Origin: Megamerina dolium
Taxonomy: Eukaryota; Arthropoda; Insecta; Diptera; Megamerinidae
Assembly: GCA_963854835.1 (NCBI GenBank)
Contig: OY978526.1
Coordinates: 42,447,140 to 42,511,139 of the forward strand
Direction: 5' to 3'
DNA: 64,000 nucleotides
A program made the translations under genes and the position numbers. Positions 2,328 to 33,079 of the stretch are shown one piece after another. Under the pieces are notes generated by a model. That model was given only the letters and a program-made list of their open reading frames with translations, did not search any database and was not told the origin of the DNA. Each line of letters starts with the position of its first letter. Position 1 is the stretch's first letter.

Positions 2328-5300
2328 ATGTCAACAAATTGCAAAGAGTTTCAGATTCAATGTACAATATATATTATTTTTGCGAGTATTTTAATACAAG
2401 ATGCACGTAAGTACTTTAATAAGATGATGAGCATTGTGTCTAAATTGAAATTAATGAAAAACATTGCAGATACTCTGCATCGCAGTCTTCGACATTACGA
2501 GATATTTCACAGTGATGATGTGATGCATAAAATTATCAAAAGAGGCCTTAAACAGAGCTCAAATCCTTACAATATCATCGAAGAAGTGGAATTCAAAACA
2601 TTGGGCAGAAGTTTCCGTTTAATATTGCATCCACACCGTGAGGTTCTGCACAGTAATTTTAAAGCATATGCTGTGGATGGTGATGGTAATGAAACAGTCG
2701 TTCACTTAGGTATGTCGCAATCCATATCTATACACAAAAGTCACACTTGTTAATCATGGTTTATTTAAAGATCATGATAATTTTTATTCTGGGCGAGTAT
2801 TTGGCGAAATGGATTCCTCTGTTAGAGCACACATTGAAGACGGATTAATGACTATGTCCATACAGCTACCTGACGAAATTTATCATATCGAGGTAAAGCA
2901 ATTTAACCGCAATTTTTAGAACATTGTTAATTTTTATCATGCCACTTGTAGCCTTCGTGGCGCTTTTTACCAGTGGCAAAAAACAAAACAATGGTTGCAT
3001 ATAGAACATCCGATATGAAGTTGAATTGGAATCGACCAAAAAATGATATGGGAGGTGCCCCGCTTACCTGCGGTTATGTTAAAGAGGGTTTAGGTTTGTT
3101 GCTGATTTAAAAATATTGTTCCGTGTATAAAGTTAGTTTATTTGTTTAGAATTAGAAGTTGATGATCATGACGATGATGATGACGCATTGTTCGATAGTG
3201 ATTTTTATCAGAGTGAAAAGCAAAGTCAAAGGAAATCACGTAAAAAACGTCAAACTGATCAATATGAATATACACCAACAAAAACTCGTTGTCCGTTATT
3301 ATTGGTAGCTGACTATCGGTTTTTTCAAGAAATGGGCGGTGGCAATACTAAAACAACTATTAACTATTTGGTGAGCTAAAATGATATTATTCTGTTAAAT
3401 TCGCCAATTTAGTTATTATATCATGTGTATACATACAATTATCACATTTCAGATTAGTTTAATCGATCGTGTACATAAAATATATAATGATACAGTTTGG
3501 CAAGATCGTTCAGTAAGTCAATGGGATAGAAGCATATATATTTGTTATTTCGGATAAATAAATAAAAAGTAAACAATTTTATTTGCAGGATCAAGAGGGA
3601 TTTAAAGGCATGGGTTTCGTCATAAAGAAAATAGTTGTACACTCAGAGCCAACACGTTTACGTGGAGGAGAATCCCATTACAATATGATACGTGAAAAAT
3701 GGGATGTACGAAATTTACTCGAGGTATGAAAAATAAATCGCTTTTAAATAAACAAATATTCACACTACTACGCATGCATAATTTAGGATAAGAAAAAAAA
3801 AATAACGTCCTTATCATAACTACATACTACATTGCCTATATTTCTTTCCTTGTTCTTCTCATTATCGTTGCGATTATTAAAAAAAAAACATTGCTACGAA
3901 AATCTAGGTCTTTTCACGGGAGTATAGTCATAAAGATTTTTGCTTAGCTCATCTCTTCACTGACTTGAAATTTGAAGGTGGCATTTTAGGCTTGGCTTAT
4001 GTTGGTTCACCACGACGCAATTCAGTTGGTGGAATTTGCACTCCAGGTTGCATAAATATTCAACGATTGATCGTTTTCTCTACTTTTGTTTTTTTCACTT
4101 TTGTTCCCTTTTGATTTATTGTGTACCCACATATAATTTTTTTAAATTCATTCCTTTTTGTATGTGTTTATATTACATGTCTAATGTAGTTTTGTATTAT
4201 TTGTGGATTTGCAGAGTATTTTAAAAACGGTTATACATTGTATTTGAATTCCGGCTTGAGCAGTTCTCGAAATCATTACGGTCAACGTGTAATTACGCGT
4301 GAGGCTGACTTAGTGACGGCACATGAATTTGGCCATAATTGGGGATCCGAACATGATCCTGACATACCCGAGTGTTCACCTAGTGCTTCACAGGGCGGCA
4401 GTTATTTAATGTATACCTACTCGGTCAGTGGTTACGATGTGAATAATAAAGTGAGTATCGACGGCAGAACTCAAAAGGGAGTCCACTTATGTATGTGATT
4501 TTTAGAAATTCTCTCCATGTTCTTTGCGATCAATACGAAAAGTTCTACAGGCGAAATCTGGTCGTTGCTTCTCAGAGCCTGAGGAATCATTCTGTGGCAA
4601 TTTGCGTGTCGAAGGAGATGAACAGTGTGATGCTGGTTTGTTAGGCACTGAGGATAATGATGCTTGTTGTGACAAGAATTGTAAATTGCGACGCAATCAG
4701 GGCGCAGTTTGCAGTGATAAAAATTCTCCATGCTGTCAAAATTGCCAATTTATGCCATCAGGCATGAAGTGTCGAGATGCACAATATGCAACATGTGAAC
4801 AGGAGGCACGTTGTACAGGTACACATGCCGAGTGCCCGAAATCTCCAGCCATGGCGGATGGTACCATTTGCCAGGAACGTGGGCAATGTCGAAATGGCAA
4901 ATGCATTCCATATTGCGAAACACAAGGCCTGCAGAGTTGTATGTGTGACATCATAGAAGATGCATGCAAACGGTGCTTATAATTTAGATACACCCTATGG
5001 ATATCTATAATTTTGAATTCAATTTTAATCCCTTTTAGGTGCTGTCGCATGAGTATTAACGAAACGTGCTTTCCAGTTGAACCGCCAGATGTATTACCAG
5101 ATGGTACTCCTTGTATACAAGGATTTTGCAATCAGGTAATATTGCTACTAATTATTCAATGAAAAATAAAATCTTTCTAAGCATTTCTTACCTAGGGCGT
5201 ATGTGAGAAAACCATTCAAGATGTTGTTGAACGATTTTGGGATATTATTGAAGAAATCAATATTAATCGTCTTTTACGCTTATTCAAAGACAATATTGTC

Positions 5301-6457: not shown

Positions 6458-7083
6458 TTATTTCTTTTTATTACTCTTTTTGCCGTTTGTTTGCGGTGGA
6501 GGAGCCTCATTGTCGTCATCATCATCCTCCTCATCAAAATCGTCCTCATCTTCATCATCCTTATTAGCGGACCGTCCCCATACCTCGACCATTTCGTGAA
6601 CAAAGAGTTGTCCGTAAATGTATACTGGTCCCTTCCCCTGGATTAGCTTAAATGTAACGGAATTGCTTGGGAATTCAATATTTGGACGTAGTAAACGTGT
6701 TTCGCCTGCCTTCAAAACAGCGATGGGAATTTTTAGTGTTTCTTTTTCGTCAACTCTTGTTTCTGCCTGAAATTAGTCCTTTAGGAATATGCTTTTTCCG
6801 CCTTTTTAGAAAATCACTTTTTACCTGAACAACATTGAATTCGCCATCTTTAGCGTCCACACCGAGGCATATATGTTTGATAAATAACTTTTGATCTACT
6901 TTATCGTCTGTTACTTCACATTGAGCTAAAGGTTCCTTTTCGCTCAGAGTTACTCCTGGAAATTTTAATTTATAGAATCATAGAACAAAATTACATCGGG
7001 TACACACAACTATCAAAGGTATAACCTATGAATGAGGCTCAAGATAATCACATTTACATACCATAAAATGATACTGTCTCCAT
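6458..7083 (-). CDS. Nph: nucleophosmin, nucleoplasmin-family histone chaperone
   Basis: Three exons join at 7083-7062, 6955-6825 and 6766-6458 to give 153 aa beginning METVSFYGVTL. Nucleoplasmins form pentamers that bind histones and assist chromatin assembly. Visible features are the N-terminal FYGVTL strand, the conserved core segment IPIAVLKAGETR, the SVTFKLIQGKGPVYIYG strand, a long Asp/Glu run (about residues 122-138) typical of the acidic histone-binding tract, and a lysine-rich end. The intron phases (1, then 0) match those of Nlp at 18425-31665, so the two genes are old paralogues. The weaker match to Drosophila Nlp, plus its position beside Tace, supports the name Nph. It is convergent with Tace. 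No defect is seen. Confidence 0.92.
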
Positions 7084-7500
7084 GATTCTGATCAAATATT
7101 CAGTTTTTCTCCAATTAAAATTAAAACAATCGTTTATTATGTCTACAATTATTGGTGTAAATTCACACGTGCCGCCACACGGATAATAAAACGCAACGAA
7201 GAAAGCTACGAACAAAGAAATGTACAGGAACTGTCAAAACATAACAAATGTCATGCGATTTTTTATCAACGCGGTAGATGAACCGGCACATAAAGAAAGG
7301 TGCCACACTGCACTCTATCATACAAATTACATTTCCCCAGTCTAACTATAAATTGTACGGTAATATATGAATGACGCTTATTATGTATATTTTTGCGGAG
7401 AGTTATGTAATACATTATATATTATATTAGAGTTTCCTTTATATATGCTGTTCTTTGCACTTGTTTACTCTTATTTTTATTGTATTGTGAACAGAGCTAG
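7084..7500. other. intergenic, upstream of Nph
   Basis: AT-rich, with no coding feature. It should contain the Nph promoter. The recognisable segmental duplication starts at about 7500. Confidence 0.4.
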
Positions 7501-7675
7501 TTTCACCAAAAAGTGTCCTTGATTTGAGTTTAAATTTCAAACAATTTTAGAATTATGGCAACCATTTGTGTTTTAAGCATTTTCTTTGGCGCCTAAGTAG
7601 AGCGAATACCGCATAAAATGAAATTGCAAAAATGTGACAGCATTTGTAGCACCGGTTTGGCATTCTTCTTCATAT

Positions 7676-8240
7676 AAAGTGTTTTCCATTAGGGACATAA
7701 CAATTTCATATCTTTATATGAACGCACCCTTAAACTTTTTTAATCAACTGTCAATGTCAAAACGTTAGTTAAAGTCAACATTTTTCGTCATAGTAAAGTT
7801 CACGAACCAGCAACGTTTGGAAATGATTAAAAATGACTACCGAAATTCTGAGTCGGTGGTCGCAACTTTAAAAGCGCTTACTCCAATTTTCGGCTGTAAT
7901 AATCGTCCCACCCGACAGGCTGTGCGTGCTATAGTAGATAAATTCGAGTCCACATTTTCATTATTGGACGTTCCGGTGCCAAAAAGACGTCGTACCGCTC
8001 GAAGCGAAGAAAATATCGCAGCCGTAAGTGCATCGATTCAAAATGAGCCAAATCAGTCGATTCCACGTCGTTCTCGAGAATTGGGCATAGCTCAAACGAC
8101 ACTGTGGCGTATTTTGCGAAAAGATCTTGGCTTGCATGCTTACAATATCAAATTGACTCAAAAACTAAAGCCACTTGATCATTTGAAACGCCGAAACTTC
8201 TCCAATTGGGCTCTGACGAAGCTTGAAGAAAAAGCTTCGT
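7676..8240 (+). mobile_element. truncated Tc1/mariner-superfamily element
   Basis: The frame 7817-8263 encodes the N-terminal DNA-binding half of a transposase: a helix-turn-helix around VATLKALTPIFGCNNRPTRQ, a linker VPKRRRTARSEE and a second HTH near SRELGIAQTTLWRILRKDL. It stops after NWALTKLEE, so the catalytic DDE/D domain is missing. The boundaries come from comparison with copy B, where CTCATATATTTCTGCAAAG is uninterrupted. It separates the shared 5' flank from Nlp copy A exon 1. A more decayed relative lies at 52240-52510. Confidence 0.8.
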
Positions 8241-8804
8241 CTGCAAAAGGTAGAGCACTTTAGATTATTCTCTAAGTACAAATCTATTATAGAAAAAGAA
8301 GTCCCATAATTACCATATAATCATAATGTCAGATGAATTATTTTATGGTAAATAAGTTAATATAAGGGTTATTAATCAATTTTAGTTATCCATACTATAG
8401 GAAATTATGAACGGAAATGGCAGAATCTATTTTATATTTTGCCAACAAAGTATAAATGTGCACATTTTATACTTTAGTTATCTAAATTGGTTATATTAAA
8501 ACTCCCTATATAGGTGTTACTCTTACCGGCGAAAACAACACAGTGTCGTGGGATGTACTCTCAAACGACGAAGACTTTCCCCGAGGTCAAAGACTAATAA
8601 TCAAACAAATTCTATTGGGTGCTGAAGCAAAAGAAGATGGATTCAATGTAGTTGAGGTAAGATCACAGTCTTCCAAAGTAGTTCTTGGTGTAAAAACATA
8701 ACCGTGAAAGGTGTATGACTTGTGTACTTTTAAACTTTATGTTCTTAAAACAATATCTTTACGGCTACAATTCCAACACTCGATGTATAGTCTATATTTA
8801 TTTA

Positions 8805-10605: not shown

Positions 10606-10619
10606 TATAATTTAAATGT

Positions 10620-11055
10620 TAGTGTAACCTTGTTAAAGTAAATTGGTAAATATGACCTATAGTGGGGTCACTTTGGGGTTGTGTATTTAAATATCATTTA
10701 CAAATGATTTACTACATGAAAATATATGACGTGTTTTAAGTTGTAGACGGGATGTAACTACAACGGATGTATTCATCCAGTTCCAGCATATTAATTTACA
10801 ATTTAGTAAATGTAAGTCATCACGAAGAGATTATATTCTGTGCAATAGATTTCACATATATTTAGAAATGGTTCATTGGCTATTTCATTCGTCTTTCCAA
10901 TGCCACCGTAGGATTAATTGCATGTTGTTGTTGTTGTTGTTGAACCGTTGGCAACAACAGCTTTCACATCATTACTTTTTGCTGACACATTTTTTACAAT
11001 TTAAGATTTAAGATACTCGGCCGAAGAATAATTAAGTATCACAATGACCCGTTCA
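10620..11055 (-). pseudogene. SLC26 transporter exons 8 and 7, duplicate relic
   Basis: The segment aligns with exons 8 (18995-19204) and 7 (19273-19440) of the SLC26 gene. Conserved blocks include the reverse complement of LLNCKLICWNW (about 10790-10830) and the STAS-domain coding stretch at 10950-11050. Small deletions (for example in the region matching 19045-19070) and a GTT-repeat expansion at 10923-10942 break the frame. The 5' exons are absent; the relic is cut by the repeat that starts at 11063. Confidence 0.85.
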
Positions 11056-11062
11056 TGATTTT

Positions 11063-12380
11063 TATACCCTGCATAATGCAATATGCATGGTATATTCATT
11101 TCGGTCAGATGTTTGTGTCCACTTGAAGGAATCTCCGGAGATATAGACATGGATATATATTCGTGACCAGCGTCGATTAAATTTTCGATTTAACGATGTC
11201 CGTCCGTCCGTCCGTCTGTCTGTCACCTGGCTGGTTCGCACGATAACTTGAGTAAATATTGAGCTATTTCGATGAAATTTGGCACAAGTAATGTATGATC
11301 CAAGGGTACGGAGGGGATTGATATTGGGCATGATCGGTCAATAACCACGCCCACACCAAGCATTCAAAGCGACTAACCTCGAAATTTTCAAAATCTTTAA
11401 CTTGCTATAACTCACATAATATACAACTTGGGACAACAATATTTGGCACATAGACTTATATTATACTACTATATAACCTCGCCAAAAGTGGTTGAGCCAC
11501 GCCTACTTTTTAGCGTAGCTCTCATACAAAGTGTCTGTACTTCTTTTAAATTGAAACAGCTGTAACTTCTACAATCTTCTGTCCAGAATAACACTGAGAT
11601 TAACATGGTAGTCGGAAATAATATGGCAGAAAATCAGTGTGCCACGCCCACTGCTTTTTGGGTCTCCCATACAAAGTTGCGGAAAATAAAAAAAATGTTA
11701 CCGGTTATAACTTGCAAACTATTCAGCGTAGAATAACGAGATTTAAGGTGTGGATTAGTATTGTACGAGCATCTAGGCTCACAGAAAATGGGCGCACCAC
11801 GCCCACTGTTTATCGTAGCCACCATACAAATTTTAAATTAAAACAGCTGTAACTTCGGCAATCTTCTGTCTAGAATAACCATAATTGACACTTAAATTAA
11901 TATCGTAGTCGGCAAAAATCTGGCAGAAAATCAGTGTGCCACGCCCACTCCTTCATAGGTCTCCCATACAAAGTCGAGGGAATTAAACTAAAACTTTTAA
12001 GCTCCATAACTTACAAACCATTTAGCGTAGGACAACCAAATTTAAGGTGTGGATTGATATTGAAAAATTAATTAGATATACCAGAAAGAGATACGTCACG
12101 CCCACTTTTTATATATCTTCCGTATAAAGTCTCGAATTTATCTTAAACATTAAAACACCCATAACTTACTAATTAATACGCCTAGGTCAACCCATTGCAA
12201 CCTATGTAGTTTAGTATTATAGGCAGGAATTGATCCTCCAAAATTGGTGAGGTACGCCTGCTTCTTAATGTAGGTCCTATACAAAGTAGTGGAAGAAAAG
12301 GATGGATATACGAGCAAACTTTTTATATATATGTCTACATATGCAGGGTATAATTTGGTCGGCCCCAGCCGACTGTAAGG
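11063..12380. repeat. dispersed repeat with internal degenerate tandem units
   Basis: A non-coding element bounded by short inverted ends (ATACCCTGCATA at 11063 and TATGCAGGGTAT at about 12340). It then runs into GGTCGGCCCCAGCCGACTG. The interior repeats a degenerate unit containing CCACGCCCAC, CCATACAAA and AACAGCTGTAACTTC (seen at about 11500, 11640, 11800, 11940 and 12095), with a (GTCC)n stretch at 11201-11222. Flies have abundant related repeats. A decayed fragment with a similar Gtccgtc/cacgcc signature is at 61490-61700. Confidence 0.75.
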
Positions 12381-13190
12381 AGATTTTTTAACTTAATTAA
12401 GTTTAACTTAAACAAATAAAATAAAAAAAAAAACACAAAAAAGAAAGATGTCTAACCCCATGTAAAATGTACTCAGTAATTTAATACAATTAACCCGAAA
12501 GCTCGGCCAATGAGCCCTTTGGGGCTTTATGTGGCCACATATTTATTTATTTTTTAACCCGAAAGTTACCCATGTCGCCTAAAGTGACTGGTACTTTTTT
12601 TGACGAATTTTCAAATATATTCGTTAGGATTGTCAAATTGTAGGCAATTACCAAAAAAGCAGATTGCTTTAATATCGAATTATATTTGAACTAGTAAAAC
12701 GGGTTTAAGTAAAGTCATGTTAAGTACAATTAGGTCTGACATACGTTAAAGTTTGTTGAAATTTTTAACAATGTCGGTTTTGTATGCTAGGTAGGGAAAT
12801 AGTTCGTGGTGACGGAACTGGTTACTCTTTCATTGAACTTTGATACAAGATTTATTGCTCTTTCGTCCGTATCGTTCGCTATTTTTTTCACTATTGTTTA
12901 AGCGCGTACATTGTTGTTGATGTTCATCCAGCGACTGGGGTCAATTTAGAAAAGCAATATATTTAACTCCATAACACACATCATTCATAATTTCTTTTTT
13001 TGTGCAGTCACAATTCTCTTCGTTTTTGTGTCAATGTTTCGATCAAACAATGCAAAGCCGATGAATGTGTGAATTTGGAGTAGTATTTGCAATATTGAAA
13101 TTTTTTTCAATTTATTTGGATTTTAATATCCTCTTCACATTCTGCTGCCGGAAGGACGATTTAAAATATTTTAGCTATATAAGTCATTAT
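12381..13190. other. no gene recognised
   Basis: AT-rich DNA between the repeat and the relic of Nlp exon 3. A run of poly-A-rich sequence at 12415-12445 follows the repeat. No supported coding frame or repeat match was found. Confidence 0.4.
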
Positions 13191-13535
13191 TTAAATTTCT
13201 TTCAATTTTTTCCATTGTTGCTCTACACAGTTAAAGATTCGCTCAATGTGTCATATGATGAAGAAGATTATGGTGATGAAGAGCAAGATGAGGTGCATCC
13301 AAAAAAGAAGCAGAAACTTGAGAATAATACCAATGGTAAAAATACAACAAATAGAAAAAAAATAAAGAATCTAATTGCCTATGAAGTTTACAAGAATAAA
13401 ACATTAAATTAAAAGAAAAGTGAAAACACAGTTTTTGAGGTGTAGTTCTTTGTAAATTGGAAAGGTAATCAGGAAGTATAGATCATAATTAGTGCATCGT
13501 ATTTTATTTTTTCTAGTTTAAATTTTTTGTCATAC

Positions 13536-18159: not shown

Positions 18160-19450
18160 AGTTGATCAAAAAGTGTAAATAAAGTTCATGGTGAAATAAA
18201 TTAAGAATTATGGCAACCATATGTGTTTTGACATTTTCTTAGGCGCCTGAATAGAACGGATACCGCATAAAACGAAATTGCAAAAAAGTGACAGCAACAT
18301 TTTTTAAGCACCGGTTTGTCATTCTTCCTCATATATTTCTGCAAAGTGTAGAGCACTTTTTAAATAATTCTCAAGTGCATATTTATTGTAGAAAAATAAA
18401 TCTAATAATTACCACATAATCATAATGTCAGACGAATCATTCTATGGTAAATATTAATATTGAAATATAAAAGCATACATATCCGTTATTATTTATCATT
18501 TGTAGTTATGTATTCTATAGAGAATTATGAGATGAAATTGGCGGCGTCTATTTTATATTTTGCAGTGTTTGCATGATGCCCAACTTAGAATAGATGCCCA
18601 CATTTTGTACTTTAGTTGGTTGAATTGGTTCTATTAAAATTGTATATTTATATAGGTGTCACTCTTACCGGCGAAAACAACACAGTGTCGTGGGATGTAC
18701 TCTCAAACGATGAAGACTTTCCCCGTGGCCAAAGACTAATCATCAAACAAATTCTATTGGGTGCTGAAGCAAAAGAAGATGAATTCAATGTAGTTGAGGT
18801 AAGATTAGAGTCTTCTAAAGTAGTGCTTGGTGCAAAAACATAACTGTGGAACGTGTATAATTTGTGTACTTTTGAATGTTATTTAACCATGTGATCTGAA
18901 TGCAATGTTCTTACGGCAATAATTACAACACTAGATAAATTTTCTACATTTATTTATAATTTAAATTTTCATGTAACCTCATTAAGATAAAGTGCTACAT
19001 ATGAACTAGAGTGGTGTCTCTTTCGGCTTGTGTATTTAATAACATTTCACTTGTTACAAGTTCTCCAAGTGATTTACTGTATGAAAACATATCACGTGTT
19101 TTGGGTTGTAGACGGCATATAACTCCGACGGCTGTATTCATCCAGTTCCAGCATATTAATTTACAATTTAGTAAATGTAAGTCATCACGAAGAGATATTA
19201 TATTCTGTGCAATAGATTTCACATATATTTAGGAATGGTACATATGTTTAACTGCTATTTCATTCCTCTTACCAATGCCACCGTAGAATCAATTGAATGA
19301 ATGTCGATACCGTTGATAACAACTGCTTTCACATCATTACTTTTTGGTGACACATATTTGACAACTTTAGATTTAAGATACTCGGCTGAGGAATAATTAA
19401 GACTATCAGGTATTACAATGACCCATTCATGGTTGTTTATCTTAATTATA
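18160..19450 (+). repeat. segmental duplication, copy B (active locus)
   Basis: Partner of 7500-11055. It holds Nlp exons 1 and 2 and the inverted SLC26 exons 8 and 7 without interruptions, so it shows the pre-insertion state of both transposon sites in copy A. Confidence 0.88.
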
Positions 19451-22400
19451 GAAATTGAACAGTATTAAATGAGTAAGACTATTTAATTGTGAGAATGAAA
19501 TGGAAGAATAATTACCTTTTCAGTTCTTAGAACAATTCTAGGCATTGCGCTACTATAGAGTATAAAAATCATATTCGTCAGTACACCACAAACCATACCA
19601 TATTCCAGACTCCAGAAAAGACAAGAAATTACAGTGACCAAAAAAGGAAATATATCAATCTCTGAATTGAAAAAAAAAACGAGTTATAATCCCTTTATTA
19701 CAGTAGTTACATGTCGAGTAGAATTATGTTGCTTTCATGGTGGAACGGAGATAATAGAAAGAGCAAAGCCTCTGTATATATATATGGTAGAGCAGGGAGC
19801 AAAAATTTAGAATAGAAAAACTTATTCAGTTCAACAAATTAAGGGTATATAGATTTTGTGTTTCTGTTTGTAACATCAGACAGAATATTTTACACAACGG
19901 AATTTATGTTTTCAAATTTTGTGCAATATAAAGCTACCATTTCTACTTCCCAGACGGAAGTATAAAGTTATTCAGTTGAAAGTCGGTGGTATGTTCGCTT
20001 AAATTTCTATTAATCGACGAGCTTGAGAATCGGATTTAGCATGGAATCGGACGAACACCATCCCTGCTTGCTATATAATTGACATAAGATTTCACAGTAA
20101 AAACTTAGTACTTATAATGGACGAGTTCGAAGATAGAAACATATGTTTTCAAATGTATATTTGCGCATGAAAATGTAATGTTATCAAGCTGAAACGATAC
20201 CTACTACATGTTCAAAAATGCGCGTAATATTCCAAAAGTTGCAACATTGCCGAGCTTGAGTAAGGACAGAAAGAAATTGTGTATGTGTATTAAAGAGATT
20301 AAGAATTGAAAAAAAATGCTTAACTGTTACAGGAGCAAAATCTTCATCGTATGATAATAGCACGCAGAGTGCGCTGTATGTATGTGATTTTTGCTTTCTC
20401 TGATCGACACTCCACTATGAAAGCAGCATTGGGCACACCGACCGTTTTTTTAATACATCGAGCAATCACTGTCCACGGTCCATGTACATATTCCTAATGA
20501 AAGCAATAAATAATATATTGTCACTTACTTTTTGAACGCCAAATCTCTGCAATTGTTTCATATTCTATCATGAATATCATAGCTGCTATAATGATGGCGG
20601 CCAAAGTGGCTTTTGGAATGAAATAGAATGTTGTAGTGAGAAATGCTAAAGCCATAAGTACTAAAATGCCTGTTACAGCACCACCCAGCTGCGTTTTGAC
20701 ACCACTTGAATTGTTGATGGCAGTCCGTGTAAATGAACCAGTTATGGGCATTGATGAAACAAAACTACTTAAAACGTTGCAAAACCCCAAAGCGATCATT
20801 TCTTGAGAAGCGTCAATAATTTTACCCTTTGCTGTGTTGCATGCAATGCAAATGATATTAATTAGTGAACTTGATCGAATGTGGTGAATTCTTACAGAAT
20901 GCTTTTGCGACTGCAATGCTTTCCAAAATAGAAATCAGCGGTATAGAAGCCAAAGAAGCGCCCAGGTTTGACAGCATTTCACTAAATCCAAAATATGTGC
21001 CATTTACAGTAGTACTAAAGGGCGGCAGTTCAAACGGTGGTATTCCTGGTGTGATTTCACCACTTATTCTAAATGGTAGCCATCCATTGTGACTGAAAAA
21101 ATAACACAATATTATTCCTATTATTACAGCTGCAGCATTACGTGATAGGGAAATATATTTGATAAGAGTTTTATATGATGATGGAATATCCTTAAGTTTC
21201 TGCAACAAAATAATTACGAATCGTGGATACTTATAACCTCACACATATACATACTCGCATTAGTAGAAGAAATATTAATGTAAGAATACCCAGTATAGTG
21301 TCATTACGACGAGCTTCATTAATATGTGTGATAAAATGACTCCATGATTCTATAAATTCATTGGATGGACCTACACATATACATAGATAATTTGAAGGAA
21401 AATTCTGCCAATAGTTATAAACATATACTGCACATTATTTGCGATGAATGCATTTTCATTAAGCTCACTTTGTATACCAAATAGATTATTAATCTGTCCA
21501 CTTGCTATTGTGATGGCAGCAGCCATTGTAAATCCTGTCGTTACTGGCACTGATATAAATCTCACCAAAACACCCAAATTCAATAAGCCCATTAACAGTA
21601 TAACGCAACCGGAGAGAAAACAAGATAGTATCGCGTAATCAGCGCTAGCAGAAACATGAGTCTGCACCATAAGGGCCATTATTGCTGTGGGTCCTGTTGG
21701 ACGAAGTTTTTATTATGTGTTTACATATGGTAATTATATTCTATGTACATATATTCGTTTCATTTATGAACGTACCAACAGTGATGTCTTTGCATGTACC
21801 AAAGATAATGTAAACAAAACAACCCATAAACGCGGAGTACAATCCATATTGGGGTGTGAGACCTGCTACGGTTCCGTAAGCAATTGCCTGTGGTATTGTA
21901 GTGAGACCCACTGTTAGTCCAGCTACGAAATCAGGCACAATAAATTTTGCCTTATATTTTGGCAACCAATTTAATATATACACAAAGGATTTGATCGTAT
22001 CAACCGAACAGCATTTCTTGAGTTTCTTCTTCGAGACCAATAGTACGTTGGTAAAGTTTTCATCATAAGAATTCTCTAAAATTGTATAAAAATATTTAAA
22101 ATATAGTGCTATTAAGTAACGAAAAACTTCTTAGTATTAGGTGATATAAAAGTTATTTTCTTGAAAAAAAAAAGAAAAAATTATAGATTATGTGACACTT
22201 ATAGGTCTCGAAGGGTCCTTTGAACGAGGTTTTTCTGGGCTCTGTCTCAGATGTCTTTTAGATGAGTTTTTATGGAGCCGTTCAAAAGAAAAATATTTTC
22301 GATATAAAACTTGTGCTTCAGCCGGTGATTGAAATCACTAACCACTCAGCTACTTCAAAATTTGTTTTCAATAAAGTAAACATTTTTTCAAATATTCCCA

Positions 22401-23905
22401 AAGAAAGAAACTGAAAATACCTTTTATATCACCCAATAAATTAAGTTCGTAGTAGATATAAGTAGTAGTACTCTTCATGTTGATAATATTCTTTGTTTTT
22501 ATCGCTGAGAATTGTTTAATTAAATTATGTATTCGAATATGATGGAATAAGTGTGACTACTGCAAGTGTTATACATAGTATATAAAACAATAGGTACTTA
22601 TTGTATTTCATACACTTTATACATACTTGTGCCAGTGTATTATGTATTATGATTCAAAGATGAAGTGAGATAATTTTTGGAATAAAATTGAATTAGGAAT
22701 GCCAATCAATATAATTACATACAATATCACAGTAAGCAATCGTATAACTTGATGAGAATTGAAATGCTATTAGTACTATTTTACCAATATAGTTAATTAA
22801 TTGAATTTAAATATGGACTAGAAGGAGATTGATCCATGATTGTTTAATTTTATTATGTGCTTTGATATATGTATCAGTAAATATCACAAATAATCAACCC
22901 TTATATGGATGAAGATATTTATTTATTGCAATAGATTTTATCAGTAAGCAAACACAATTTGTCTCTTGTCGTTGAAAATATATTCTATTATGGACGGTAC
23001 TATTCCACTCATTCAAATGTCGATAAGTTAGTTTTAATCAACTTTTTTTTAATACAATATAAACAATTCTGTAATACGTTTCGTAGCGACTTTAGTAAAC
23101 GCCCAGTCAGCCGTTGTTACTCGCGAGCTAAATTCTTCTAGTGCTACGTGAATGAAGATATAACTAGGCGAGCTAAGAACGTTAATGCCACTACTTTTTT
23201 TCCAGTTTCAATCCAAAATATGTATACTTTACAATAGAAAGATTCGATTGTGCACTCCGCTCCTTACAAATATTAGATTTTGTTTGGTTACACTCTACAT
23301 AAATGTTTAAAAGTCGTGTATTTCATCAAATCGAAAGTAAAATTGCATTTGTTTGAATTTGATTTGAATACCTTTAATATCGCTCATATTTAGCACAAGT
23401 GATATTTATATTTATTTATTAATTTTATTATAAATATATTTCTTAGTAAGTACACTCGTAAATATATATGTATATATATTTTATTCTAGTAGACAGGACG
23501 TTAATGCATACAATTCGGACCGACTTTAAATGCTTTCATAGCGAATACACGATTTAGAATGAATTTCTATGTGATCATTTTAACTTTTACGTTCAGCATG
23601 AGCAACATATCGCTTATCGCTGAAAACGAATCGAGTTTCTTTTATTGTGTAATTACATATCTTTCAAAAATCTAATTTATTTTGTGTTGATTTTAGTATG
23701 TAGTTAATCAGTAGGTAGGTAGGTACATACTTGTGATATTTTCCAATTTTCTATTAGCGTCAATATCATCATGCTATTGCTGCAAATTACGAGTATACAG
23801 TAACGTGCTTTCAAGTACCAACATATATATGTTTTTGAGTGAAATCAAAACATACTTTTTAAGGTTTCTTGGTTCAGATTGTTCTGTTTACAATTTTTTA
23901 TTTTT

Positions 23906-23957
<52 letters not shown>

Positions 23958-26900
23958 TTTGAATTATTTGACGCACGTGACAATACTTTAAATTGTGACT
24001 ACCCATCAGTGGCGTATATACAGTCAGGGACTAAAGTTTAAATACACCCCACAAATCTTAATTTTAACTCGTATAAAGCATTGCTGCGAAAATCTAAGTA
24101 AGCAGTTTTTTTGCAGTCTATCAGTAAGCAAACACAATAACAAAAAATTTGTATTTGTCGCATAGATAACTGTAAATTCATCAAAAACTCAAAAAATACG
24201 CTGGACAAAAGTTTAAATACAATACAAGAAAACACGTGTTTTTGCAATTTCTTTGGAAAAGTACCGTTATATTTTTTTTGCTTTCTTCACTTACGCATAT
24301 TTATTCAGTATTATTAGTGATTTCATCGTTGTCGGTAGACTTGAAAGCAAAATAATGGGCAAAGGAAAACAAATAGAGTCTGGTGTTAAAGATTTAATAA
24401 TTAAACACTTTAAAGAAAGCAAATCCTACCGTGATATAGGAAAAATTTTGAATTTGTCCTGTGCAAGTGTGCAAAACGTAATAAGAAAATATAAAACTTA
24501 CAAAACAGTGGAAAATAGGCCCAGAACTGGTCGACCAAAAAAACTTTCTCGCCGAGATGTAAACCTTATCCTAAGAGAAGTGGACAAAAATCCAAAAATA
24601 AGTGCGCCAAAGTTAGCCGGTAGTATTGCTGCGGTGTCAGGCAAACATGTTCACCCAAAAACCGTACAAAGAGCTTTACGGTATAACGGCTATCGAAGCA
24701 GAGTTCCACGTAAAAAACCGCTTATTTCTGAAAAAAATAGACAACTTCGTCTGGATTTTGCAACAAGTACAAGGATATGGATGAGGACTTTTGGCGAAGA
24801 GTCTTATTCACAGATGAATCTAACTTTAATATTTTTGGCAGCGATGGTCGCGCAAAAATTTGGCGCAAGCCCGGCACAGCACTTCAAACCAAAAATTTAA
24901 TACCAACCGTTAAACATGGGGGCGGTAGTGTGATGGTTTGGGGAGCAATTGCAGCAGCTGGCGTGGGACACTTGGCTTTTATCGATGGAATAATGGACAA
25001 ACACGTGTATAAAAGTATATTGGAACAAAATTTGCAGCCTTCTGTGGATAGCTTGGGTCTGGGAAGAAGTTGGATATTTCAACTAGACAACGACCCTAAG
25101 CATACCGCGCATTTGGTGAAGGACTGGTTGCTGTATTATGCTCCACGTCAGCTCTGTAGTCCTCCCCAATCACCGGACTTAAACCCAATTGAACACGCTT
25201 GGGAATTATTGGACCGAAAAATCAATCGCGCAACTTTAAAGAACAAAGAATCCCTTAAAGAGGCTCTGAAAAAGGCCTGGTCAGAAATCAGCACATCCGA
25301 AACAGAAAATTTGGTTCTGTCTATGCCACGTCGTCTGCAGGCAGTCATTGAAGCTCAAGGCGGACCTACCAAATATTAATTTAAGTTTAACGTTTTTTAA
25401 TTAAGCTAAAATCAGCTAAAGAAAGAAAATTTTGTATTGTATTTAAACTTTTGTCCCATGTATTTTTTCAGTTTTTGATGAATTTTAAGTTATCTATGAA
25501 AAAAAGTGTCATGCTGTTAGTGTATGCCGACGATATTCACATAATCGGCATGAACACGCGAGCAGTCAGTGCAGCATTCTCAGAGTTGGAAAGAGAGTCG
25601 CGTCGGATGGGTCTCACGGTGAACGAGGGCAAGACGAAGTATCTAGTGTCAACAAACAAAGAGTCCCGGCGTCTTGGACAGCACGTCACTGTTGACAACT
25701 ACGCTTTTGAAGTAGTAAGGGACTTTGTCTATCTTGGAACCAGCATTAACAGCAGTAATGACGTCAGCTTGGAGATCATGCGTAGGATAACTCTTGCTAA
25801 CAGGTGTTACTTTGGGCTGAGTAAGCAATTGAAAAGTCGAGCCCTCTCTCGAAGAACGAAAACTACATTCTACAAGTCTCTCATCATGCCTGTCCTAACA
25901 TATGGCGCTGAAGCCTGGACAATTTCCATCTCGGATGAGCGAATGCTTGGGGTTTTCGAGAGAAAGGTCCTACGGAGGATCTTTGGACCTATTTGCGTTG
26001 GTGGCGAGTACCGAATAAGGTACAACCATGAGCTGTACGTGCTATATGCCGATATTGACATAGTAAAGCGCATCAAAATCCAGCGGCTGCGCTGGCTAGG
26101 TCATGTCGAGCGAATGGAAGAACACGCTCCAGCTAAGAAGGTGTTATATTCGGAACCCGCTGGAGGACGACGCAGAAGAGGAAGACCAAACCTCCGGTGG
26201 AAAGACCAAGTACTGGAGAACCTGACGGCGCTTGGAATTTCTAACTGGCGCCAGCTAGCGAAGAACAGAGATGGCTGGCGAAGCATGTTGTTTTCGGCCT
26301 AAATCGATATTCGGTTGTTATGGCCACATAAGTAAGTAAGTATGAAAAAAAGTGAATTGTTTTGGTTTTCGATATTGGTCATTATTCAACTAAAAATAAA
26401 CTGCATACTTACATTTGTGTTAAAATGCTTTATTTTTATTTAAAGCGATGTTTTATGGGTGTATTTAAACTTTAGTCGCTGACTGTATGTATATGACGTA
26501 TGATATACTGAAGGGGGAAACCTTTTTCCAATTTGATACTTTACTTTTTCGATTCAGTTCAATTGAACTCGCTTATATTTTAAGCGGCCTGAGTTAGAGG
26601 GTTGCAAAGTAAAAAAAACAACACTATTGTGAATAGGCTACTGTAATGTGCTTGGGAAATTTCAACAACACGTCAAATTATTGTAAATATAAACAAAACT
26701 AAGCAAAATAAAGCAAGTGTACATAAAAATTTTTTTTAAATAAACGAATATATTTACCATATATTTCGCAGAATTGCTTCTTTTTTGCTTTTATTTCGTT
26801 TACAAATTTCACGAACAACCATATATACCATCAGCGTTGCTAAGTAACTAACTAAAGGGAAATTATAAGCAAGTAAAAGAGAAATTATATGCAAATTGGT

Positions 26901-29900
26901 GTTCGTTTGCAACTCGCTTACAAAAAAATGCGGCTACTATCAGCTTCATTTTAAATTTTCCCCGGGAATTGATCTTTTACGAGAATAAATTCATAAATAA
27001 TAAATTCAACAATATAGTACTATAATCGTGCACAAACAGTACAAAAGTATGTACAGCATAGCATTTAGATTGATAGCAAAGAAGCGGGAGCAGGTGAAAC
27101 AACAACAAAGGATTGTAAGGAGGCAGCTACGCTATGCGGCAAATCCGCTTGAACTGCCGGAAACTTTGTAATTATAAGAAGTTTATATCTGTTTATTATA
27201 TTAATTATTGATTTTCAAAGGTTTCAGTAGTATTTCAAATTGAAAGTTATTTGCTGTTTTTGACCTAAATGTAAGAATAATGCTATAATAATATTTGTAG
27301 TAATAATAAATAGCAACATTTGTTCCATTTTCAACGAAAAAAATTAATTACTTATATTTTTGCATCCAACTCTCTTGCAGATTTTTGGCGGAATATTTTT
27401 CAATAAACGTCATCACATTTCCCCTTTTATTGACATTCATAATGCCTATTTTTTTTTTTTCCCAGGGAAGAAATTCCCAATTTCGAAATTCGTTTAGAAT
27501 TGGGAGAGAGGGAAAAGGGAAAAACTCGCGGGGAATTTATATTCAGAATACAAGAATAGGGAAAAGGGGAAAAATTCCAGGGGAATTCTTATTCAGAATC
27601 GGGCTGTATATCTATAAATTAGCTCAACATCCATTGCAGGCATCCATTCCCCTGACTCTACTGGCTACGCCACTGTTGTCTACGCTCTAAACGATTAGCC
27701 TCAATTAAATTTTGTGTAAGAGGAAGTAATTTTGGATATTAAATTATTTGTTATAATTATATTAAGCATGTAGGTATTTAATTCGCCATATTTATTATTT
27801 ATGTTATATGTGTGTGTAAGTATTTATTATTTATTTCGCTTTTTGTTATGGAATTGGTATTATATTGGTAGAAGATCAATAGACGAAATTTTCTATAGAA
27901 AATTTGATTTCTTGCTAATCATTAAAAGAAGATCATGTCTGAAATAAGAGTCTACAGTACAGGTCTTAGTACGCTACCTTTGTATTTTTTCAATTAAGTA
28001 CTTCATAAAATAAGAGTACGTAAATAATTATTACAGATTAAGAATAAGTGCCTATAAATTTATTCGAACATTAAATTTCATTGAAATAAAACAACCCTTT
28101 CGATTTTTATCCAGTTATTGTGTTGTATAGAAACACTATGTACAGTGCAGACTCTGATTGCAAACACACATGCGTCCACACATCTAGTTTAGGATATTTT
28201 TCTTGAGAATTCCACGATTTTTCTCACAAGTTTCAAGTTCTCAACAATCTCAAAGGTGCAGTAATGTGAGGTCCTCGTTTGTCACTAAAACCATTTGGAC
28301 TTTGATGTTATTGAAAAAAAAATAAATATTACTTGTAACATTTTGTTTTGTTTTCTATGGAATCGAGAAAATAATAAAATTCCATTGCGAGTAGCTAGCA
28401 AAAAGAATACTTCATATATATGTTGTGTCGTCTAGTTTTTTTTTGACGTCATGCTACACATTTTATGGTGCAATTTTTAATTGTTGCCATATTTTCGTTT
28501 CTCATTTTATTTTATTTACATACAATAGGTGTATGTACATACGCGAAGCAATTATAATTTCTTAAGTAAATTAAGGTGGATTGCTCCGCATACAAAAAAA
28601 AAAAATAGTTTCTAAATTTCACCCCGAACGCTTCTAGAACCGCTGAAATGGAATTTTTATCATTGCTCAGTTGTTAATGGTCTGATTTTTAAAAATAATA
28701 ACTTGTTGCTCAGCTAATAGCTCAGGGAGGGCTATAATTCCTGCATATTTGCTTTGAAATTTAACGATCCCTCAAAATATCATATTCAGTTCCCCTAGTT
28801 CTACCCCTCTAAGAAAACATTTGTCCACCATAAAAACAAAGCCCATTAAAAACCATACAACTTTTCCTTTTGAAGTTTCAAGCTGTGTCTAAAAATAAAA
28901 TAGTAATAACGAAGTTAAATTTTGATTAAGGGTTAATATTTCTCCACAGAAAGCACTATTTTTTGGAGCGGAAAGCATCGAGAGCCGTGAGGTAGTGTGA
29001 AACTTTAACCCACTAAATCTGCATCTATGTCCGATTGTTTAAATAGTAGATAATTGTCCTAATTTTCCGTTCCTGTCCATATCATGTCCTTAATCGCAAT
29101 GCAAAGTGATTTGAAATAAGCAATTAAATATTAATTTTTTACTTTAAATCTTGACGAGATTGTAACAGTCTTGACATTCACACTCTAGTTTGGCAAATAT
29201 ATATCCGAGTCGTTTTTTTATCGCCAATAACGAGGGCTGAGTCTCACAAATTGTATACAACGTTCGGTATTTTGTCAATGACAAAAAATTCTAAAGCAAA
29301 AGTTTTGTAGTTTTTAAAGGGCTTACATTTCATGATGGAAACCATTTTGATTAGAGGGCTGATTCTAGCCCTATAACTAAATATAATTATTTAGGGACTC
29401 ATTGAATTTCAAAGCAAATATGCAGGAATTATAGCCCTCGCTGAGACATTTTCAACAAGCTATTATATTTAAAAATCAGACAAGAACTAAGTTATGAAAA
29501 AAAAAACAAATTTTAGTGGTTCTCAAAGGGTTAAAAAAACAACATTTTTTTCTTCCGAGAACCTTTTAACATAATCTTTCAAACTAGGGGTGAACGTGTG
29601 AAACTTTTTTTTCGTGACCCACCCTAGTGTACTTATTTATGCAACAATTCCATTGGAGTCTTTTTTTTCGACTTTTCCATCCATCAAGTTAACGATTTTA
29701 AGAGGTTACTGATTGATATCAAATGTGATAATGATAAGAATAATATTTATTCAAATGATTAGCCGTAATATGTAACATTGATTGAGCATTTTCTGGTTCT
29801 TATTGTATAAGTAGGTAAACATTTTAATATTCCATATTAAAATTGTCTATTATACGTAGCGAAAAGACATTTAATATCAATGAATCATTCGTTGCTCTTT

Positions 29901-31665
29901 GCGATGATACAAACATTTAAGATGTAGGCGTAATCTACACTTTAGTCAAGTCGTTACGCATTAATATTAAACCTGGCGTTATCTAAACGCCGACTGAGTT
30001 TCAATTATGCAGTATTTCTCCATAAAATACAGTAATTAGGTTAGGTTAGGTTATGTGCTTGCCCTCTCTCTGAGAGGGCCAGAAAGGCCTATTGTGATAC
30101 CACCGAGCTTCTTTTCCAATACTGTTGTGCGTGTTAATTTTGGACAGCATTAGAAGGACCTACTCATATTAGCTGGTTCCGAACGGCAGAACCATAGCTC
30201 TTTTAAGAAGCATTTTTGGCAAATTGTTACTGCCGGAAAAATTGCAAATTCTTGCCGGCAGGTGGATACCGTTCGAAAGAAAAATCTTTTCGATATCAAA
30301 TTTTGTTATGCATCAACCGAGGATTGAACCACGACCTACAGATCAGAAGGCCAACGCACTAACCACTGAGCTACGGCACCCACAAATACAGTAATTGGTA
30401 TTTTAGAAAGTTATTTCATTAACTTTGCATAGAAGATGGATGGATAGAAACATCGTTTGTAGAATGGCAAAATTGTTATGGGCCCATACATGCAAAATAT
30501 ATGCTGATAGATCTACCGATTCCAACAAACAAAATATTTCAACATATTGCGGAGGTGGTGACTACCCATTACTTACTGCCTTACCTGCCACCTCAGGCAT
30601 GACTTGCAGAAGCTGCAACTGTGTGAAGTTTGCCGCAGTTCAGGTTATTATTACTTAGATGAGCTCCTAACTAAAGCCTCCTAAACTACATCAGAAGCAC
30701 ACGTCAGTTTTGTTTTAATAAAACGGTGAGACATACCATTGGGATTCCAACATCCCCTGTCGATAGTATACGAGAAATGATACCGGATGGCAAACATTTC
30801 CCGAACTCTTTTTTGTATATATACAAAATGTAAAATGTTTTTGAAGTGTAAAAAAATTTGTACGAGGGTGTTGCAATAAGTCTCGGAAAATTTAAGTAAC
30901 GAACACAATATTAGCTTGATATATGTTACTTCTTTCAACGTTTCTTCAATTTGTTGATGCCCTCCTAATAATGCGATTTCTCAAAGCCATTCAAATAGGC
31001 GTTTGTTTCTTCGGTGACCTGTTCATGTAACCCAAATCTAAATCTGGATAATATACTATATTTGCCATTGCTACTGCGGCGGCGGTGTGTTGTCCTGGTG
31101 GAATTGAATTTTTTCTCACCAAATACGGACGTTTTTGCTAAAAATCGGCGTCGAATCGATCCGACAGCTCTACGTAATATGCGCAGGCATCCGTTTCGGC
31201 TTTGATTCACTACAATACTTCCAATGCTCGTTAATATTCCGCGATGTTATTGGGGTACCCTTTCAAAATAAGCATTTTATTGATGTTTTTGTTTTTGTAT
31301 TTAATATACAGTCAGTATATAATTATTTATATTTCTTTTCATTTTTTCCATTGCAGCTCTACACAGTCAAAGATTCGCTAAGAATTCCCATTGCTGTCTT
31401 GAAGGCGGGAGAAACTCGTGCAGTTAATCCAGATATTGAGTTTTTCGAAACATCAGTAACATTTAAACTGATCAAGGGTAATGGACCAGTATATATACAT
31501 GGGCAGAATATAAAAGACGATATGGATGTTGTTGATATGGATGATGATGTGTCATACGATGAAGAAGATTATGGTGATGAAGAGGAAGATGAGGCGCATC
31601 CAAAGAAGAAGCAGAAACTTGAGAATAATACCGATGGTAAAAATACAAAAAATAAGAAAAAATAA
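18425..31665 (+). CDS. Nlp: nucleoplasmin-like histone chaperone
   Basis: Three coding exons, 18425-18446, 18656-18798 and 31357-31665, join in phases 1 and 0 to 157 aa (MSDESFYGVTLTGENN start). Family members are pentameric histone chaperones active in egg and sperm chromatin remodelling. Visible are the FYGVTLT strand, GQRLIIKQILLGAEAK, the core IPIAVLKAGETRAVNPD and SVTFKLIKGNGPVYIHG, an acidic tract (about residues 110-131, with YDEEDYGDEEEDE), a basic HPKKKQKLE nuclear-localisation-like motif and a lysine-rich tail. Close to Drosophila Nlp as I recall it, hence the symbol. Intron 2 is 12.6 kb and contains the whole SLC26 gene on the other strand plus several transposons. Reading through the exon 2 donor gives 15 extra codons and a stop. 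All splice sites are consensus, unlike those of the duplicate at 8326-13412. Confidence 0.93.
18995..22478 (-). CDS. CG7912: SLC26-family sulfate/anion transporter (SLC26A11-like)
   Basis: Plasma or vesicle membrane anion transporter with a SulP transport core and a cytoplasmic STAS domain. Exons on the minus strand: 22478-22421 (start, less certain), 22075-21776, 21693-21469, 21370-21255, 21199-20896, 20831-20529, 19661-19516, 19440-19273 and 19204-18995. All phases agree, giving 609 aa. Landmarks are LPKYKAKFIVPDFVAGLTVG, PQAIAYGTVAGL, the SulP signature split across exons as KDITVGPTAIMALM, SMPITGSFTRTAINNSSGV, and a STAS domain (about residues 485-609) with HEWVIVIPDSLNYSSAEYL. An AATAAA on the minus strand near 18955 would end the transcript about 130 bp from the Nlp exon 2 donor. 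The gene is nested in Nlp intron 2, antisense. The symbol is that of the Drosophila gene I believe is orthologous. Confidence 0.9.
22270..22364 (-). mobile_element. SINE fragment
   Basis: A decayed piece of the tRNA-derived SINE: the reverse complement contains GTAGCTGAGTGGTTAGTG (A-box side), a degraded B box and the TCGAAAATATTTTTC body segment. It lies in the first intron of the SLC26 gene. Confidence 0.65.
22479..24020. other. Nlp intron 2, upstream of SLC26; no further gene
   Basis: AT-rich intron sequence that should include the SLC26 promoter. The only clear structure is the ATT microsatellite at 23908-23956. Confidence 0.45.
23908..23956. repeat. (ATT)n microsatellite
   Basis: About 16 uninterrupted ATT units in Nlp intron 2, likely to vary in length. 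Confidence 0.95.
24021..26485 (+). mobile_element. Tc1-type (DD34E) transposon, family 1, interrupted by a LINE
   Basis: Ends CAGTCAGGGACTAAAGTTTAAA (24021) and its imperfect complement (to 26485) sit between TA dinucleotides (24019-24020, 26486-26487). A second copy of the GGACAAAAGTTTAAATAC motif lies inside each end (24194 and about 25440), an IR/DR arrangement. The transposase spans 24355-25379. It has a paired-like HTH (SYRDIGKILNLSCASVQNVI), a GRPKK hook, then FTDESNFNIFG, LDNDPKHTA and SPDLNPIEHAW, carrying all three catalytic residues, and ends GGPTKY. A single frameshift near 24770 divides it; otherwise it is well preserved. A LINE inserted at 25509. Confidence 0.93.
25509..26340 (+). 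mobile_element. 5'-truncated LINE (copy 2) inserted in the Tc1 element
   Basis: A 14-bp target duplication, TATGAAAAAAAGTG, flanks it (25495-25508 and 26341-26354). The element begins just upstream of the catalytic YADD box and stays open to the stop at 26302. It contains LTVNEGKTKYL, the thumb region FYKSLIMPVLTYGAEAWT, the C-terminal RLRWLGHVERM and GRPNLRWKDQV motifs, and NRDGWRSMLFSA at the end. The 3' end is CCACATAAGTAAGTAAG. It is the most complete 3' half of this family in the window and the reference for copies 1 and 3. Confidence 0.93.
26486..28569. other. Nlp intron 2, no gene
   Basis: AT-rich intron DNA. A local imperfect duplication at about 27491-27600 repeats GGGAAAAGGGAAAAA...GGGGAATT...ATTCAGAAT twice, about 60 bp apart. 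Nothing else supported. Confidence 0.45.
28570..29635. mobile_element. foldback-type element with long inverted arms
   Basis: The first and last roughly 250 bp are imperfect inverted copies of each other. Shared blocks include GGGCTATAATTCCTGCATA (28730 on +; reverse complement at 29425), GCTTTGAAATT, CTGATTTTTAAA and the ends TTAAGGTGGATTGC... against CTAGGGTGGGTCACG.... No coding frame. A single-arm fragment of the same family lies at 63455-63540 (ATTAAGGTGGATCGTCTCCATACAAA). Confidence 0.8.
30038..30383 (-). mobile_element. complete tRNA-derived SINE
   Basis: On the minus strand the 5' end is tRNA-like: GGTGCCGTAGCTCAGTGGTTAGTGC has a pol III A box and GTGGTTCAATCCTCG a B box, spaced as in tRNA genes. 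A body of about 250 bp follows. The 3' end is a short tandem of CCTAA (TTAGG on +, 30038-30052). A perfect 13-bp target duplication, AAATACAGTAATT (30025-30037 and 30384-30396), shows retroposition. Further copies lie at 14993-15350, 53436-53696, 22270-22364 and 52190-52235. Confidence 0.92.
30790..31260 (-). mobile_element. mariner transposon relic
   Basis: The minus-strand frame ends with a mariner transposase C-terminus, VTEETNAYLNGFEKSHY, continuing in another frame as EGINKLKKRWKKYI. The segment TACGAGGGTGTTGCAATAAGT at 30862 resembles a mariner terminal repeat. Upstream parts are scrambled and no intact catalytic triad is left. It ends about 100 bp before Nlp exon 3. Confidence 0.65.
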
Positions 31666-33079
31666 AGAAACTAACTAACTGCCCATGAAGTTCACAAGAA
31701 TAAAAACTAAAATTTAAATAAAAAACAAAAACAAGAAAAATGAAAAATGCAAAATGAAAACACATTCTTCGTCGTGTAGTCCTTTGTAAATTACAAAGAT
31801 AATCAGGAAATATAAATTACAATTACATAGTTCCTCGTGTTTTAGTTTCTTAATTTAATTTTTTTGTCATATCTTATGGCTTTTTTCTTTCTCCATCTCA
31901 CTATCATCTTTCTCTCTCCTATTATCAGGATTGTTTTTATATTTCGCTTTCGATTGAAATTGATTTGACAATGCAAATTGGGGCATTGTGCTTTTTAATT
32001 GTTAACGTGCAGAAATAAATTTATGAAAAATATCGTTTATTCCACAAAAGCTATACTTATATATATATAGTTTAAAAATTTTAACCAGTACGTATAAAAG
32101 CGATTTCAATCGAGAGTTAAATTATATCTATACGCTTCTATACTATTTCACAAAAGTTATTTTTAAGTTAAAGAAGAAGAATAAAAATAATTTTGTTACT
32201 TAAAAAGATACAACTCAGTATGATGAGTATAACAATTCCCGAATATGGTGAGAAATTGCAAACAAAAAACTCAATATGTATGCATGAAATAATATTTCGA
32301 TTGATATAAAATTTTGTTTAAATAGTTATCATCAGACAATTAATTAAAACACAACACATGGCGAATATATATAATAAATATTCAAACTTTTTTAAAACTA
32401 ATACAAAACAAAATTTGATTATCAAAATTTGGTGATCTGAAAGTGATGTGTGTCGATGTTATTATTCATACTATTTAAATTGTATCCTCAATTAAAAAAC
32501 AAAAAAACATTCTGAAACAGACACTATTGTAATTTGTACTGTATATACCTAAGTGATAAATAAATAAACAACATTAAAAATATAAATCGAAATGGAAATT
32601 ATATTTATATTAATTGAAGTGACTTTTAATTGTTTAAGTTGAGCAGAACATCCGTGCCATTTGTGGATACATCGTTTTGTTAATGTGACTGACATCTTAA
32701 ATCTCAAAACAAGTTGGGGGAAAATTGTTTTGCTTATATATTGAATTTTCTTGTTTTTCTACTCACTGAACTCACTTTACGTGTTGTGATTCGCTGCTTA
32801 TAATAATGCTGCATACTTTTTACCACCAAAAGATTATAATTAGTCAAAGTTAAGATCATCTTAAAGTTGGAATCAGCTTGTTTGACATATTTCCCATACA
32901 TGAACCAGCAAAAAAGCCGATTCTTTTAATTTACCAAAACAACAACACCATATTTTATCCAAATTTAACGAACGTGAGAGCATAGCCAAAATTCACGATG
33001 AACAGATAAACAGACTGATAGATGGGTTTAGACAGTATGAAACTATTCGAGAGTTTGTTTAAGAACAAATCACTTTATA
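31666..33079. other. Nlp 3' region and intergenic DNA
   Basis: Contains the Nlp 3' UTR with AATAAA near 31697 and 31720. The rest is AT-rich without a supported gene. Confidence 0.5.

Follow-up and report, generated by a model that had tools for sequence, protein, structure and literature searches.

A probable case of recent death in a long-working Nlp duplicate of Megamerina dolium

A stretch of DNA from the fly Megamerina dolium (64,000 nucleotides of contig OY978526.1, assembly GCA_963854835.1; hereafter the window) carries two copies of the nucleoplasmin-family gene Nlp. In the upstream copy (copy A) exons 1 and 2 look protected by selection though their own exon 3 is dead. A sequence-only reading had offered two explanations for this: either these exons are an alternative first-exon set that splices to exon 3 of the downstream copy (copy B), or copy A was functional until recently. 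Are exons 1 and 2 of copy A still protected, or is their protection a trace of the past?

Two Nlp copies, one with a nested transporter gene and one with its relic

The features on which the argument depends are as follows (positions are those of the window).

About 6458 to 7083, minus strand: Nph, the nucleophosmin paralogue, lying head-to-head with copy A; its exons were assembled by eye
7539 to 7676, plus strand: upstream region of copy A, matching 18194-18335 of copy B; 11.7% different, the lowest value of the non-coding pieces
7677 to 8239, plus strand: transposon remnant between this upstream region and the ATG of copy A; without counterpart in copy B; six ATGs
8326 to 8347, plus strand: exon 1 of copy A, codons 1-7 and the first base of codon 8; contains the replacement S5L
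8514 to 8656, plus strand: exon 2 of copy A, 143 nt, starting in phase 1 and ending in phase 0; contains the replacement E50G
10606 to 11065, minus strand: SulP relic in intron 2 of copy A, corresponding to the C-terminal (STAS) exons of the gene; frameshifts and two in-frame stops
13221 to 13412, plus strand: exon 3 relic of copy A; TTG in place of the CAG acceptor, core shortened in frame by a net 165 bp, four replacements in the 34 tail codons compared
13229 to 13230, plus strand: AG that might stand in for the lost acceptor, from which it lies 10 nt downstream; shifted frame, 99-aa product
18425 to 18446, plus strand: exon 1 of copy B, the working gene
18656 to 18798, plus strand: exon 2 of copy B, the working gene
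18995 to 22130 (approximate bounds, without the first exon), minus strand: SLC26/SulP sulfate-transporter gene, antisense in intron 2 of copy B (18799-31356)
31357 to 31665, plus strand: exon 3 of copy B with its stop, the sole intact Nlp exon 3 among the genome-search matches

Copy B encodes a complete Nlp of 157 aa. It has the composition of the nucleoplasmin family (a core followed by an acidic stretch and a basic tail), agrees in residues 1-111 with the solved core 1nlq (E 1.6e-51) and has 139 homologues, with PF03066 present in all 120 of those listed. It also aligns end to end with 34 orthologues that we hand-picked from these 120. In copy A, exons 1 and 2 together match positions 1-46 of the 102 in the PF03066 profile. 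Its own exons provide no complete nucleoplasmin core, as most of the rest is deleted in the exon 3 relic.

The two copies share five homologous blocks: 7539-7676 with 18194-18335, 8240-8804 with 18338-18956, 10606-11065 with 18955-19440, 13186-13243 with 31322-31379, and 13246-13534 with 31547-31871. Their order and orientation indicate that the entire gene was duplicated in tandem and that transposable elements probably interrupted it later. A search of the whole genome with the copy B protein (500.5 Mb, 8 contigs; best candidates scored) returned six matches at E values up to 10, and all six fall inside the window: exons 2 and 3 of copy B, exon 2 and the exon 3 relic of copy A, and two Nph exons. 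Among these matches there is no partner exon 3 for copy A elsewhere in the genome.

The gene nested in intron 2 of copy B is recognized by PF00916 pieces on the minus strand from 22130 to 20521 (4-157 and 170-370 of the profile). At 19464-19255 there is a STAS match below the cut-off, and the last coding exon ends at 18995. In intron 2 of copy A the recognizable SulP match is limited to the C-terminal part, in which two deletions (2 bp and 16 bp) are accompanied by an insertion within a trinucleotide run and by the two in-frame stops. Despite this decay, one 64-bp run of the relic is identical to copy B.

Ahead of the copy A start, the reading frame of the transposon remnant (7677-8239) has a Pfam match to DUF4817, and we take the element to be mariner-like. 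There are six ATGs in 7640-8325 of copy A versus none in 18290-18424 of copy B, and one of those in the remnant opens a frame of 146 codons (7823-8263). The stretch between Nph and copy A (within 6458-8325) may contain a promoter shared by the two; copy B has only about 230 bp of it. The window also contains an acetyl-CoA hydrolase/transferase gene (38314-39789, minus strand; PF02550 and PF13336) and an ADAM17-like disintegrin exon (4524-4982, plus strand; PF00200, with PF16698 below the cut-off).

Past selection on exons 1 and 2 of copy A

Recomputed, the counts of the sequence-only reading are correct: across the 55 codons that exons 1 and 2 share with copy B there are seven synonymous and two replacement changes (S5L and E50G) and no indel, and the donors of introns 1 and 2 and the acceptor of intron 1 are intact. 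Intron 1 differs heavily, as that reading had noted, being 166 bp long in copy A and 209 bp in copy B, with 24% difference and five gap events in a single alignment that is uncertain in its first 18 columns. Per site, the exons have two replacement changes in 129 and seven synonymous changes in 36 (pN 0.016, pS 0.19, dN/dS 0.07). Setting exon divergence against intron distance, the comparison that the reading had proposed, gives a low dN and a dS like that of the introns: the exon dS of 0.19-0.23 falls inside the range of the non-coding pieces outside SulP (Jukes-Cantor distances 0.13-0.29).

The SulP relic provides an internal standard for these values. The middle of intron 2 (10606-11065) had been considered as a neutral reference and was dropped in that role, since it is SulP coding sequence; it was then used codon by codon. 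Over 115 codons (of 128, those with gaps being excluded) the relic has 39.3 replacement changes in 272 sites and 11.7 synonymous changes in 73, so that pN is 0.145 versus a pS of 0.16 (ratio 0.9-1.1), a near-neutral pattern with no visible constraint. Part of these differences could lie on the copy B side. Compared with exons 1 and 2, the relic differs both in replacement sites (Fisher P = 1.5e-5) and in the ratio of replacement to synonymous changes (P = 0.003). Without the microsatellite stretch the relic has 30.7 replacement changes in 253 sites, and the difference persists (P = 1.7e-4). The strictest cut, which also drops everything past the 16-bp deletion, leaves 88 codons with 16 replacement changes in 208 sites and nine synonymous in 56 (pN 0.077, pS 0.16), and gives a weaker contrast (P = 0.013 on sites, 0.052 on the replacement to synonymous ratio).

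We also simulated neutral evolution of the copy A exons, with the copy B sequence as a stand-in for the ancestor. At branch lengths of 0.08, 0.10, 0.12 or 0.16 substitutions per site, two or fewer replaced codons occurred in none of 400 runs each, and at 0.06 they occurred in 0.75% of runs. On this result and on the SulP comparison we reject neutral evolution of exons 1 and 2 since the duplication. Past purifying selection on these exons is thus well supported, and it acted through much of the period during which the neighbouring SulP copy was decaying. The claim of the sequence-only reading that the exons are protected by selection therefore holds for the past, and the protection is best read as a past one.

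Could gene conversion rather than selection have kept exons 1 and 2 of copy A similar to copy B? Their identity (156 of 165 positions, 94.5%) is far above the 76-80% of the adjoining introns, as conversion would predict. However, the excess identity ends at the exon edges, and the silent sites of the exons have diverged as much as the introns and flanks. Conversion is therefore not needed, the exons being as old as the rest, and we regard it as most improbable.

The replacements also point to one side. Over 96 codons there are six (two in exons 1 and 2, four in the exon 3 tail; the counts omit codons at the deletion as well as the last tail codons, which follow a frame shift), and in none of them is the copy A residue found in any of the 34 chosen orthologues. 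With the copy B residue taken as ancestral, all six fall on the copy A side and none on the copy B side (P = 0.03, on small counts). This polarity comes from proteins only and covers the replacements but not the seven synonymous changes; for A135V it is weak, with A in 17 of the 34. Both replacements in exons 1 and 2 affect conserved residues. At position 50, E is present in 97 of the 101 covering homologues among the 120 listed (Q in two, T in one, P in one, G in none) and in all 12 aligned Nph sequences (11 from databases and the window's own). Position 5 is S in 32 of the 34 chosen orthologues; in the 90 covering homologues among the 120 it is S in 66, L in one (P0059) and another residue in 23.

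Probable death of copy A and possible present use

The exon 3 relic has lost its AG acceptor and most of the core, as the sequence-only reading had described, but it starts at 13221 and not at 13229. The core deletion is in frame, so the frame of the relic still runs into the acidic and basic tail; a shift close to its end has removed the old stop, and the frame continues to 13412. Copy A thus has duplicated introns and flanks together with a lost acceptor, core and stop, that is, the lesions of a tandem-duplicate pseudogene in an intron-bearing copy.

Has exon 3 decayed for longer than exons 1 and 2? Per site, the relic has four replacements in 101 and exons 1 and 2 have two in 129 (binomial P = 0.24), and one shared time of death for both parts is not rejected (difference in 2lnL of 1.27). 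Decay per site is not significantly greater in the exon 3 relic, and a single recent death therefore fits both parts. With three assumed neutral rates (0.10-0.145), we infer that this death occurred in the last 18-26% of the history of copy A (95% range 9-57%); the pooled estimate rises to 33% with the rate from the strictest SulP cut. Estimated separately, from small counts, exons 1 and 2 would have been dead for 11-15% of this history and the exon 3 relic for 27-40%. These point estimates lean, within error, towards the idea of the sequence-only reading, and selection on exons 1 and 2 may have gone on after exon 3 was lost. The comparison is blurred by the possibility that the exon 3 tail also evolves faster in genes that work. 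After a recent death at the pooled rate, the splice sites would be kept with a probability of 0.85 and no stop or indel would be present with a probability of 0.56. Both are thus expected, and their preservation carries little weight as evidence of use.

We consider it quite probable, from the sequence comparisons, that copy A is a long-working Nlp duplicate that died recently, and that the protection of its exons 1 and 2 lies in the past. An old tandem duplication would have copied Nlp and at least part of the nested antisense SulP gene. The SulP gene of copy A presumably decayed early, and purifying selection would have maintained its Nlp through most of the history of this copy. Death would then have come with the deletion of the exon 3 core, the loss of the acceptor and the arrival of a transposon between the upstream region and the start, probably in some such order, and the two replacements at conserved sites would have arrived with or after the loss. 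Exons 1 and 2 look protected because most of the divergence between the copies arose while copy A still worked. The proposal that copy A was functional until recently fits all the data (low dN, normal dS, replacements on the copy A side, and lesions), and probably no transcript of copy A is used today.

The same exons could instead serve as a second set of first exons, with exon 2 of copy B skipped and a splice to 31357 that would yield Nlp with S5L and E50G. Such an arrangement is possible but not needed, and we think it very unlikely. The phase fits, and exons 1 and 2 of copy A joined to exon 3 of copy B remain open and would encode a 157-aa Nlp with two differences; three of the splice signals of copy A are intact, and the exon 3 at 31357 is the sole intact partner among the six genome matches. 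Of the non-coding pieces the upstream region 7539-7676 has changed least, the replacement rate of exons 1 and 2 is lower than that of the relic (not significantly), and of two Nlp isoforms predicted in Eurosta solidaginis one (P0027) differs from the other (P0014) at the N-terminus. Against this, both replacements are on the copy A side, at residues that are S in 32 of the 34 chosen orthologues and E in 97 of the 101 covering homologues, and exons 1 and 2 are not significantly better protected than the exon 3 relic. The six ATGs and the 146-codon frame before the start also count against use, although only with a transcription start upstream of the remnant. Moreover, joining exon 2 of copy A to exon 2 of copy B, whose acceptor is the first one downstream in the working gene and the one that readthrough splicing would be expected to use, shifts the frame after residue 55 and gives an 82-aa product, so productive use would have to bypass exon 2 of copy B over an intron of 22.7 kb. 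Phase and splice sites are as the sequence-only reading had stated, and little else speaks in favour of the junction that it had proposed. If that junction were used, a chaperone variant with E50G would be made from a promoter facing Nph, and selection would have continued after the loss of exon 3.

Also very unlikely is present-day production of a truncated or chimeric protein by copy A itself, either through the AG at 13229-13230 (55 Nlp residues followed by a shifted basic tail, 99 aa in all) or by reading to a stop in intron 2. Copy A does have this AG with a pyrimidine tract ahead of it, and the shifted frame stays open until a stop in the last exon. However, the product would lack the C-terminal half of the core, its shifted tail would be old sequence in another frame, and E50G and the upstream ATGs count against it as well.

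Comparison with known systems

As in other tandem duplicates that turned into pseudogenes after long function, copy A combines introns, a low overall dN/dS, several lesions and replacements on its own side at conserved residues. It differs in that neither a stop nor an indel nor a splice-site loss falls within exons 1 and 2 themselves, and in that the host gene outlived the nested gene; this suggests that the nested gene and its host were lost from this one duplicate at very different times. A recently dead duplicate can appear protected by selection, since dN/dS between two copies is an average that includes the time when both worked, and annotation of an intact exon pair of this kind as an Nlp isoform should wait for reads. 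The fate of copy A is an ordinary one in evolution; its internal control is unusually good.

Alternative first-exon sets arise by tandem exon duplication, for example in UGT1A. The upstream exons of copy A resemble such sets in being phase-compatible and in having an upstream region of their own. In the window, in contrast, a working exon 2 intervenes, a transposon remnant with ATGs precedes the start, and the arrangement is known from DNA alone.

In Drosophila the gene order is presumably Tace-Nph-CG7912-Nlp-CG7920. A literature search in a limited collection returned nothing on Nlp with nested genes and a sulfate transporter, or on Nlp with CG7912. Drosophila has a nucleoplasmin pair, Nlp and Nph (PMC6277087). 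The window likewise has one full Nlp (copy B, with its 1nlq-like core) and one Nph, here beside copy A, and it differs from the pair described there in having an additional, broken Nlp copy.
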